A stretch of 37,170 nucleotides of DNA, from the IMG/VR virus record IMGVR_UViG_3300034344_000006, positions 1 through 37,170 of that record. One strand, given 5' to 3'. The stretch is from a virus. The position numbers and the translations under genes are program-made. The notes below the pieces were generated by a model. It saw only the letters and a list, made by a program, of their open reading frames with translations, was not told where the DNA came from and ran no database searches. Position 1 is the stretch's first letter. Each line of letters begins with the position of its first letter. Below, piece by piece: positions 1 through 3,181 of the stretch.

Positions 1-1896
1 ATGGCAAAAGCCCGGCGGTACAGTCTGGCCGGTAAGCTGGCCACTAACACTAAAATCCTCGGCACCCCGCAGAAAGACCCGGCGGGCGATACCCTGGTGC
101 GGAAGCTTACGCGGCCGCAGACGCCCACCAAAAACCGGGCAGAGCATCGCCATACGCCGCAGAACGCGTGGGAGGATTTCTTGGCACTGTACGCGTATTG
201 TGATCAGGATACCGTCGCCGAGGATAACGTCAGCGCGCACATTCCCGATCTGACGCCGGATGAGCTGGCCACCTGGCAGCTCGATCAGACGATTAACGCC
301 CGCGGTGTGCAGGTCGATATCGTGACGCTCGACGCCGCCATTGATATCCTCGAACAGACCGAGATCAGCTATAACGAAGAGCTTAAACAGATTACCGGCG
401 GACGGGTGCTGGCGGCCAGTGAACTGCCCGCAATGCAAGACTGGCTATCCGCCGTACATGGCGTCGGTATGCCCAACATGCAGAAAGAGACCATCGCTGA
501 GACCCTGAAATCAGGACGCATGCCGCCGGAAGCCCGTCGCGTTCTTGAGATACGGCAGACACTCGGCGCGGCCAATGTCAAAAAGCTGCGCACGCTCAAG
601 CTACAAGTCAGCAATGACGGACGGTTGCGCGACCAGTACATGTATTGCGGGGCGGATCGGACAGGCCGCGCATCGGCCGGCGGCGTGCAGCTGCAGAACA
701 TTACGGCCAAGGGGCCGAAGACGGCCTGCTGTGAGGATGTCACCTGCGGAAAGATTTTCGGCCGGGATGCTCTCCGGCTGCAGCCGCCAGATGGTGGCAT
801 ACCCCACTGCCCCCGTTGCGGGTCGTCGCTATGGCGTGACCTCTCAGACTGGACCATCGAAGCCGTCGAGCAGGCCATCGAGGACATTCAGCTCCGAGAC
901 CTGGCACATATTGAACGGGTATGGGGCGACCCCATAGCGCTGCTCTGCGGCTGCCTGCGCGGGCTGTTCATCGCCAAGGAAGGGCACAAGCTGGTGTGTT
1001 GCGACTTCTCCGCCATCGAGGCGGTTGCGGCGGCCTGTCTCGCCCGCTGCCAATGGCGCATCAAAGTGTTCAGCACGCACGGCAAGATATACGAGGAGAG
1101 CGCCGCCAATGCTACCGGCATCCCGTTCGAAGAGATCCTTGAGTACAAGCGGGCTAACGGCATGCACCACCCCGCCAGAAAGACGATCGGGAAGGTTCGA
1201 GAGCTCGCCGGAGGTTATGGCGGGTGGGTCGGGGCGTGGAAAAACTTCGGCGCCGATGAGTTCATGACCGACGATGAGATCAAAGTCGACGTGCTTAAGT
1301 GGCGCAACGAATCCCCGGAGATAGTCGAGATGTGGGGCGAGCAGTTCCGCTGGTGCGGCCCCGGTAAGTGGGACTACCGGCCGGAACTGTTCGGATTGGA
1401 AGGCGCAGTGATTAACGCCATCCTGCACCCCGGCCAGTGTTTCAGCCATATCGACATTACGTACGGCGTCTGGGATGACATACTGTTTTGTCGCCTGCCG
1501 TCCGGTCGATACCTGCACTACCACCGCCCCCGCCTGTCGAACGCCCAGGACAAGCTCAAACGCGGCCCGAGCTACCAGATAACCTTCGAGGGGTATAACT
1601 CCAATTCGGCGAAGGGGCCTGTCGGGTGGCACCGTATGGAGACATATGGGGGACGGTTGTTCGAGAACGTCGTTCAGGCGGTCAGTGCCGACATACAGTT
1701 CGAGGCGCTTAAGCGCTGCGAGGCACGCGGATACCCGATCGTTATGCACACCCACGACGAGGGGTCTGCCGAGGTGCCGGTAGGCTTCGGTAGCGTCGCA
1801 GAGATGGCGGCGATCATGTCCGAACGGCCCGCGTGGGCAAGCTGGTGGCCGCTACGAGCTGCGGGCTGGGAACATAAACGATATCAGAAGGATTAG
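1..1896 (+). CDS. Family A DNA polymerase (phage PolI type), 5' truncated by window edge
   Basis: This is the replicative DNA polymerase of the phage. Polymerase motif A is CDFSAIEA with D335 and E340. Motif B runs from R393/K394 through K398 to the GYGG at 405-408. Motif C is HTHDE with H585, D586 and E587. Near the start, Y66-x3-D70 (YCDQD) fits the last motif of the 3'-5' exonuclease, but the first two exonuclease motifs are missing, so the gene almost certainly begins upstream and the ATG at base 1 is internal. An unusual cysteine-rich insert (C243, C244, C249, C270, C273) lies just before motif A and could bind zinc. The next ORF follows after 2 bases. Family assignment is firm; the true start is not visible. 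Confidence 0.93.
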   Translation: MAKARRYSLAGKLATNTKILGTPQKDPAGDTLVRKLTRPQTPTKNRAEHRHTPQNAWEDFLALYAYCDQDTVAEDNVSAHIPDLTPDELATWQLDQTINARGVQVDIVTLDAAIDILEQTEISYNEELKQITGGRVLAASELPAMQDWLSAVHGVGMPNMQKETIAETLKSGRMPPEARRVLEIRQTLGAANVKKLRTLKLQVSNDGRLRDQYMYCGADRTGRASAGGVQLQNITAKGPKTACCEDVTCGKIFGRDALRLQPPDGGIPHCPRCGSSLWRDLSDWTIEAVEQAIEDIQLRDLAHIERVWGDPIALLCGCLRGLFIAKEGHKLVCCDFSAIEAVAAACLARCQWRIKVFSTHGKIYEESAANATGIPFEEILEYKRANGMHHPARKTIGKVRELAGGYGGWVGAWKNFGADEFMTDDEIKVDVLKWRNESPEIVEMWGEQFRWCGPGKWDYRPELFGLEGAVINAILHPGQCFSHIDITYGVWDDILFCRLPSGRYLHYHRPRLSNAQDKLKRGPSYQITFEGYNSNSAKGPVGWHRMETYGGRLFENVVQAVSADIQFEALKRCEARGYPIVMHTHDEGSAEVPVGFGSVAEMAAIMSERPAWASWWPLRAAGWEHKRYQKD

Positions 1897-2102: not shown

Positions 2103-2140
2103 TACTACGTACGTAACGGTTGGCTTAACTCAGGCATACA

Positions 2141-2210
2141 CATAACGACCAAGCTCAGTTGTTGCGCAGGAGCGCAGCGACGGAGCAATCAACTGGAGCT
2201 AAGTGTTATG
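2141..2210 (+). mobile_element. attC-like integron recombination site (imperfect palindrome)
   Basis: The 70-base stretch folds as an imperfect palindrome with attC layout. The outer arms CATAAC and GTTATG match the R''/R' simple sites. The inner arms AGCTCAGTTG and CAACTGGAGCT match L''/L', and one arm has an extra G as an unpaired base. The stem continues with TTGC/GCAA past another unpaired base, and a GC-rich centre separates the halves. Unpaired bases on one arm are a hallmark of attC sites recognised by IntI integrases. The GTTATG end overlaps the ATG of the methyltransferase gene, as expected at the front of a cassette. Structure is seen directly; integron origin is inferred. Confidence 0.6.
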
Positions 2211-2702
2211 CCATTTCCTAGAATTTTAGACCCTTGTTGTGGGAGCCGTATGATGTGGAAAGACCGGGACAACAAAGACGTAGTGTTTGGCGATTGCAGG
2301 ACTGAGACAATAACTGTTACTGACCGTAGCAACGGGAAACAGGACGGGACAAGGACTCTCAAAATTGAGCCAGACACATTGATGGACTTTAGAGAGATAC
2401 CTTTCCAAGACGGAACTTTTAAGCTTGTGGTTTTTGACCCTCCGCATCTGCATACCGCTGGACCAAAAAGCTGGCTCGCGGCAAAATACGGCAAACTGTC
2501 GGAAAACTGGAGAGAAGATCTAAAGCGTGGGTTTGATGAGTGTTTTAGAGTCTTAGAGTCAGGCGGGGTGCTGGTGTTTAAGTGGAATGAAACACAGGTA
2601 AAACTGCAAGAAGTAGTTAAATTGGCACCGCAACAGCCTCTTTTTGGGCATTTGTCTGGGCGGAAAGGGCTAACCCACTGGCTAGTTTTTATGAAGGCAT
2701 AA
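2208..2702 (+). CDS. Class I SAM-dependent methyltransferase
   Basis: This 164-aa protein has an N-terminal DPCCGSRM, which fits the SAM-binding glycine-rich loop (motif I), and a central FDPPH that fits the catalytic DPP-type motif IV of N6-adenine or N4-cytosine amino methyltransferases. The C-terminal FRVLESGGVLVFKWNE is the usual strand of a Rossmann methyltransferase. There is no target recognition domain, so substrate is uncertain: DNA or small RNA are both possible. The ATG lies inside the R' arm of the attC-like site and the stop lies inside a second CATAACG. Sampled base composition is lower than the polymerase (28 of 60 against 36 of 60 G+C), which suggests recent acquisition. It may protect phage DNA from host restriction. 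Confidence 0.85.
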   Translation: MPFPRILDPCCGSRMMWKDRDNKDVVFGDCRTETITVTDRSNGKQDGTRTLKIEPDTLMDFREIPFQDGTFKLVVFDPPHLHTAGPKSWLAAKYGKLSENWREDLKRGFDECFRVLESGGVLVFKWNETQVKLQEVVKLAPQQPLFGHLSGRKGLTHWLVFMKA

Positions 2703-2708
2703 CGACCA
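2698..2708 (+). repeat. Second copy of CATAACGACCA overlapping the methyltransferase stop
   Basis: The 11 bases CATAACGACCA are identical to the left arm of the attC-like site at 2141-2151 and include the stop codon of the methyltransferase gene. In integron cassettes the R'' end of attC commonly overlaps or closely follows the stop codon. I could not find a matching L'/R' right half downstream, so this may be a truncated site. A third CATAAC, without the ACGACCA extension, overlaps the stop of the next gene at 3170-3175. Confidence 0.45.
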
Positions 2709-2754
2709 GCATGTGCCGCCTGCGGGCCGAGCACGCGAAACCTTGAGAGGATAA

Positions 2755-3174
2755 ATGACAATGAACGAAACCACCGTAAACACCGAAGTAGCAGGTCGGA
2801 ACAATGCACTTGTTATGCCTATTCAGCCTATTAGGACTGATGAACGAGGCGTGCAACGCTTCGTGCCAAACAGGATAGTAGAGAAGCTTTTAGAAACCTC
2901 TACCCTTGACTTGAATAGCATCGCCTGCATGGATTTTACACAGGCAGAACATGAACAGCTTGCCCAACTTATCGGCTACTCAGTTTCTGGCTTTGGCAGC
3001 TTAAGTTACGTGAGCGACGAAACCTACGCGACTGCTGAAAAAATGGCTGAAGGCAAAAGCGAACTCGAAGCCAGGAACGAACACTTGAGAGAAACCCTTG
3101 ACCAAGTTCGGGGCGGAGTGAAGGAGGCAGCTACGGTTCTCTTTAGAATCCACCCGGATGATCTTGAGGCATAA
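2755..3174 (+). CDS. Conserved phage hypothetical protein, 139 aa
   Basis: The start has a GAGAGG ribosome-binding site at 2745-2750; the ATG at 2755 is taken, and the second ATG at 2761 is nearly as good. The central stretch QLAQLIGYSVSGFGSLSYVS followed by a helical, charged, probably coiled-coil region resembles a family of uncharacterised small proteins found in phages and prophages; I know no function for it. It has no membrane segment. It lies in the AT-richer island with the methyltransferase and is the last rightward gene before the convergent junction. Its stop codon is also inside a GCATAAC. Confidence 0.72.
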   Translation: MTMNETTVNTEVAGRNNALVMPIQPIRTDERGVQRFVPNRIVEKLLETSTLDLNSIACMDFTQAEHEQLAQLIGYSVSGFGSLSYVSDETYATAEKMAEGKSELEARNEHLRETLDQVRGGVKEAATVLFRIHPDDLEA

Positions 3175-3181
3175 CATCTGA

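Follow-up and report, generated by a model that had tools for sequence, protein, structure and literature searches.

The analysed window, which is the whole 37,170-nt stretch of the viral record IMGVR_UViG_3300034344_000006 (IMG/VR), opens with a family A DNA polymerase gene followed by a palindrome, a DNA methyltransferase gene and an open reading frame of unknown function (ORF4). The features are given below with coordinates, strand and supporting evidence; R1 and R2 denote two attC covariance models, and L106 and L107 are contigs used for comparison.

1..1896, + strand: gene for a phage DNA polymerase of family A, next to the cassettes (phrog_17, E=3e-71)
2140..2211, − strand: attC of the methyltransferase cassette (R1 51.4 bits, R2 24.9 bits, fold z −3.8/−3.9, 94% identical copy in L106)
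2140..2146, − strand: R′ box, + strand ACATAAC followed by G2147 (sequence; predicted cut AA^C between 2145/2146)
2152..2161, − strand: L′ box, + strand AGCTCAGTTG (sequence)
2190..2200, − strand: L″ box, + strand CAACTGGAGCT; carries the extrahelical base (extra G at 2195/2196 on +) (sequence)
2205..2211, − strand: R″ box, + strand GTTATGC; the start codon of the methyltransferase gene falls in it (sequence)
2146..2702, + strand: predicted mobile cassette of 557 bp, attC plus methyltransferase gene, inverted (end repeats, R″ closure, end of L107 homology)
2208..2702, + strand: DNA methyltransferase gene, 164 aa, TAA stop inside the far R′ box (phrog_954, E=1e-69, residues 5-163 of 164)
2696..2703, no strand assigned: cassette boundary GGCATAAC, AA^C between 2702/2703 (L107 comparison and sequence)
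2697..2818, − strand: probable second attC, long and divergent, overlapping the ORF4 start, R″ 2812-2818 (paired arms)
2703..3174, + strand: probable second inverted cassette with ORF4 (2755-3174, 139 aa, unknown function; boundary match, homologues in other phages)

A preliminary description, made without database searches, had read the palindrome as an attC layout of outer arms and of inner arms with one extra base, and had placed the methyltransferase ATG within its GTTATG end. All of these elements are present, with the ATG (2208-2210) lying inside the R″ box. The − strand reads GCATAAC-ACTT-AGCTCCAGTTG ... CAACTGAGCT-TGGTC-GTTATGT, where the L″/L′ arms are AGCT-C-CAGTTG / CAACTGAGCT, the extrahelical base being present on the R″-L″ arm. 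The R boxes GCATAAC/GTTATGT fit the complementary RYYYAAC/GTTRRRY type with an intact TAAC/GTTA core; the middle base of their YYY/RRR triplets is non-consensus, as in several bacterial sites (alignment A1). On both strands the palindrome folds much better than its shuffled versions (z −3.9 and −3.8, 0/200 shuffles as good). A GGAG motif located in the L″ arm, 9 nt 5′ of the ATG, is a possible ribosome binding site. The claim that the downstream segment is richer in AT than the polymerase gene also held (G+C 46.5% vs. 61%), while that of a weak second L′ arm at 2121-2131 failed, as neither R1 nor R2 lists a site there.

Extrahelical bases are by definition situated on the R″-L″ arm, and in most attC sites a G follows the AAC of R′ (PMC2727003). 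Read in the gene sense, the window site shows AACG at its 5′ end and the extra base on the 3′ arm, and by these definitions its top strand is therefore the − strand, opposite to the methyltransferase; the gene does not follow the top-strand direction that is the usual bacterial form. We infer from sequence alone that the + strand, which is the coding one, serves as the recombinogenic bottom strand.

Two covariance models support the identity of the site. R1 was built of 28 bacterial attC sites, found in part via a 16-mer of the window and thus partly circular; when the whole window was scanned without filters, it gave 51.4 bits (E=5e-13) at 2140-2211 on the − strand, with 10.4 bits as the next best score. 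Because R1 had been partly selected by similarity to the window, we made R2 of eight trimmed sites adjoining IntI genes, chosen by IntI and geometry. It also ranked the palindrome first (24.9 bits, E=7e-4; next 13.3 bits), with a weaker score from this small number of trimmed sequences. We found that a pattern derived from the palindrome matches contigs of three bacterial metagenome-assembled genomes (MAGs), two of which encode an IntI above the curated cut-off and the third a lower-scoring, interrupted IntI. In a relative of one of these MAGs, the 16-nt core CTGAGCTTGGTCGTTA is present in 25 copies pointing one way and 3 pointing the opposite way, most of them on a single contig. This array adjoins a complete IntI (462 bits), and one of the 26 bacterial attC sites extracted shares 19 nt, CTGAGCTTGGTCGTTATGT, with the window. 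A 69-bp copy of the palindrome, 94% identical, was detected in the viral contig L106, where it is found with a different gene. Rfam, searched at gathering and relaxed thresholds, contains no match to the palindrome, and a search of plasmids and phages for similar DNA returned chance matches only.

The limits of the methyltransferase cassette are marked by the direct repeat CATAACGACC at both ends (2141 and 2698), and AA^C cuts on both sides (G^TT crossover points) bound the segment 2146-2702, whose last bases are the methyltransferase stop codon. The far boundary was corroborated by L107, a contig of a related phage, which encodes an ORF4 homologue of 89% protein identity: DNA homology (84%) begins at 2699, at most 4 nt from the predicted cut, and beyond the cut L107 carries another gene and attC. 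Moreover, R″ matches the far boundary over a longer stretch than it does the present neighbour in the window (8 vs. 6 nt), L107 (11 vs. 8) and L106 (9 vs. 5). No exact empty site was found: in L107, another cassette is present and the left flank is not that of the window; polymerase relatives from IMG/VR and isolated phages provide no clean empty site either, the post-polymerase region differing from the window in the relatives compared.

ORF4 is likely to constitute a second inverted cassette, as 9 nt of R″ GTTATGCCT are matched by AGGCATAAC at 3167-3175. In the window, L107 and L109, the arms of its putative attC (2697-2818) include a single extra base, on the L″ side; in L109 the sequence differs and is still paired (shuffle p 0.006 vs. 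0.066 in the window). The R1 and R2 scans list no site at 2697-2818. As for the methyltransferase, five relatives (L043, L046, L055, L078 and L088) are accompanied by an inverted attC, located at the gene or no more than about 15 bp from it, and the family is therefore a recurrent cassette cargo; its role is inferred and is probably protection from host restriction.

We determined that inverted polarity prevails among viral sites. An orientation-neutral pattern scan of viral contigs provided 79 further loci and 261 usable sites, which are positioned opposite to the gene in 220 cases, agree with it in 17 and were unscored in 24. In the set of methyltransferase and ORF4 loci (window and L106 included), mostly not chosen by attC, 29 sites are opposite, none agrees and one is unscored, so that 249 of all 266 scored viral sites are opposite and 17 agreeing. 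The first bacterial set comprises 0 opposite, 50 agreeing and 7 unscored sites and the second 4, 32 and 9, respectively, i.e., 4 opposite vs. 82 agreeing when pooled (Fisher's exact test on sites, p about 2e-57, relatedness ignored). Counted per viral sequence cluster, 64 of 70 are opposite and 6 agreeing. At methyltransferase-related loci not chosen for attC, every R1 match with E <1 lies on the − strand, and the matches in L106, L107 and L108 do likewise. Gene strands were taken from our own codon-usage gene finder, applied equally to all sets and checked by eye against two annotated phages; it was used instead of naive longest-ORF calls, which misjudged strands in G+C-rich arrays.

In the virulent phage PH101, attC matches are opposite to the annotated genes, while in phage TJE1 the sites agree with the genes; thus, inversion is not universal in phages. 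Ordinary polarity was also observed in the viral-contig loci L216, L179, L190, L214, L223 and L187. As the L216 record encodes a complete IntI, some of these loci could consist of bacterial integron DNA at the edge of a provirus. In turn, four attC sites in gammaproteobacterial genomes (L258, L260, L265 and L274) scored as opposite to the gene; errors in the gene calls, prophage arrays or cassettes that are truly reversed could each account for them.

The expected partner of R″ in an integron is the start of the cassette to which it belongs, and these first bases are found at the previous site. Such closure across whole cassettes reaches a mean of 2.60/3 in viral arrays (shuffled 1.90; adjacent R′ 2.15) and 2.59/3 in bacterial ones (shuffled 1.58; adjacent R′ 1.68). 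The viral boxes match across cassettes as in bacteria, and the inverted units therefore look recombined, although this remains an inference. A Shine-Dalgarno-like motif in gene sense occurs in the arm of 54/223 viral vs. 3/101 bacterial sites. Supply of such a motif was considered as a reason for inversion and ruled out as a general one, given the small proportion of viral sites that possess it.

At the level of sequence, attC identity, cassette boundaries and inverted polarity are shown. We regard it as very likely that the window palindrome is a genuine attC with the methyltransferase as its cargo, and that both belong to a pool of gene-inverted phage cassettes, recombination by an integron integrase being inferred from the junctions only. 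The initial proposals of an attC-like site and of cassette uptake by the phage are thus supported by both covariance models and by the comparison with related phages. Two points need correction: the site is not the attC of a cassette preceding the methyltransferase gene but the methyltransferase cassette's own attC, inverted; and uptake had been called rare in such phage regions, yet these cassettes are widespread in viral contigs.

The window record, whose completeness is not known, contains no match in the TIGR02249 search for intI and only one strong attC. It fails the requirement of a complete integron for intI and attI, which is met by L286, L291 and other related phages. Among 50 viral records examined, IntI above the cut-off was present in two and a broken IntI in one. 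In the viral record G045, which has an inverted array, intI is neighbored by a tail-protein gene and a phage integrase gene. Its product scores as a TIGR02249 member (428 bits vs. a cut-off of 265) and, used as a query, retrieved 28 viral contigs with IntI. We found attC in 20 of the 28, and all matches (39/39) are opposite to intI; with respect to the neighbouring gene, 32 of 34 sites are opposite and 2 agreeing. The gene 5′ of intI is co-directional with it in 16/18 phage loci vs. 3/22 bacterial ones. Upstream of intI, most aligned phage loci share the block AAC-nnn-AATTCGACCGC-n-GCGGCGTAACACC, which we termed attI-like. R″ of the nearest attC matches the boundary before intI in eight of the nine loci checked (two being near-copies), including rare variants, e.g., GTTGGGC/GCCCAAC.

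In the phylogenetic tree, 17 phage IntIs form one supported clade (100/99) among gammaproteobacterial IntIs. The L308 and L309 proteins fall outside it on long branches and are also accompanied by inverted sites; the L308 gene order is cassettes, intI, terminase, portal and protease. The clade and its attI-like site are shown by sequence. A methyltransferase relative at an inverted attC (L068) and a phage intI (L292) are located on one contig, IMGVR_UViG_3300049489_000585. In L286, L291 and L292, the phage intI is directly followed, in the same direction, by another tyrosine recombinase gene, this one belonging to the ordinary family of phage integrases (phrog_1). A terminase (phrog_2) search was positive in 18/44 viral records; negative results, including that of the window record, are uninformative, because a record may be only a fragment and terminases of other families exist.

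We propose that an integron integrase, which may come from the host or a co-infecting phage or be encoded by the phage itself in some relatives, and which here would be supplied in trans, would recognize the folded attC bottom strand, in the window the + coding strand, and cut R′ at AA^C on that strand. Insertion would take place at attI in phages carrying intI, or beside an existing phage cassette site, here upstream of ORF4. The inverted gene would then enter in the direction of the phage operon and be readable without a cassette promoter, and the L″ arm of some sites, that of the window included, may also supply the Shine-Dalgarno-like GGAG. Where the operon of a phage includes intI, genes of ordinary polarity would be antisense, which is our proposed reason for inversion. 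Both the action of IntI in a living phage and the benefit of inversion are inferred.

Of the alternatives, the single capture of an ordinary bacterial cassette with a gene reversed by chance, without any special phage system, survives best, though we consider it very unlikely. In its favour, reversed genes seem to occur occasionally in bacterial loci (4/36 scored sites of the second set) and the window record lacks intI. Yet, inversion is the rule in viral contigs, every site beside a phage intI is opposite to it, and L106 combines the 69-bp palindrome with a different gene. It is even less probable that the palindrome is an RNA hairpin resembling attC (a terminator, processing site or translation control element). 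The strong fold on both strands, the GGAG before the ATG and the more frequent Shine-Dalgarno-like arm motif in viral sites would speak for it; however, the attC models score the palindrome while Rfam does not match it, the R boxes and extrahelical base are conserved, the L107 boundary falls at a box, and R″/R′ matching spans whole cassettes and attI. Phage genomes often contain short inverted repeats, but the E-values of both models, the L106 copy and the repetition of the 16-nt core in an intI-linked array all but exclude that the palindrome arose by chance or is a phage repeat with no relation to integrons.

It was already known that phages contain attC sites, that methyltransferases are among the cargo and that IntI1 acts on phage sites (Qi et al., 2023; PMC9892861), and the tested sites of PH101 recombine with IntI1 (PMC9892861). 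The CALINs and attC sites reported there in virulent phages resemble the window, with cassettes including methyltransferases in phages devoid of intI. However, polarity between gene and attC is not described in the relevant sections, where arrays are termed typical, while inversion is the feature here. Likewise, the complete integrons in that study belong to temperate phages, and it is to chromosomal or class 1 integrons, rather than the phage IntI clade found here, that they are linked. With sedentary chromosomal integrons (array in G013, C315) the phage systems share attC architecture, the 16-nt core identical to that of the window, G^TT boundaries and an intI with its array. Yet, bacterial genes have the direction of the attC top strand and usually lead away from intI, whereas phage genes run against that strand and mostly toward intI. 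In contrast to their TIGR02249 relatives, the phage IntIs constitute a clade of their own, mostly run with the preceding gene and in several loci have an ordinary phage integrase next to them. IntI targets are named as attI, attC and attG (PMC12901181). The attG sites serve as insertion sites for cassettes; the window shares with attG insertion the presence of single cassettes outside an integron platform and differs in that the neighbour site, which precedes ORF4, resembles a divergent attC.

Neither inverted phage cassettes nor a phage IntI clade were found in the open-access full-text literature searched; since only open-access sources were covered, novelty is provisional. With this reservation, the inverted architecture and the phage IntI clade probably represent a widespread and apparently undescribed viral version of the integron. 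Phages would then be owners of an integron system with methyltransferases among its cargo, rather than occasional carriers of bacterial cassettes. Gene-inverted cassettes bear on the open question of cassette origin, with phages as a possible source; polarity offers a simple marker separating phage from bacterial cassettes in sequence data, and phage IntI and attI are open to assay by existing conjugation tests. A bolder reading, which we also find likely, is that phages own an integron class with a distinct IntI clade, attI directly upstream of intI and inverted arrays transcribed with intI, the pool being shared by phages without intI, such as the one analysed here. If so, phage and bacterial pools could recombine, and a cassette that crossed over would be antisense to its new promoter; the pools would therefore be kept apart by expression, not recombination.

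Three further regions may be mentioned. The intergenic window segment 33197-33514 contains repeated, partly inverted GTAACGC motifs with weak attC-model matches on both strands and is probably a phage repeat. Five attC sites at an exact 316-bp spacing occur in L172 (629-1958; IMGVR_UViG_3300009945_000063), a record with a broken IntI, and could reflect tandem amplification of one cassette. Finally, in L104 (1-2682), from a Spirochaeta MAG, translations inspected by eye suggest C5-methyltransferase-like and Vsr-like endonuclease genes between two attC matches, conceivably a restriction-modification cassette.
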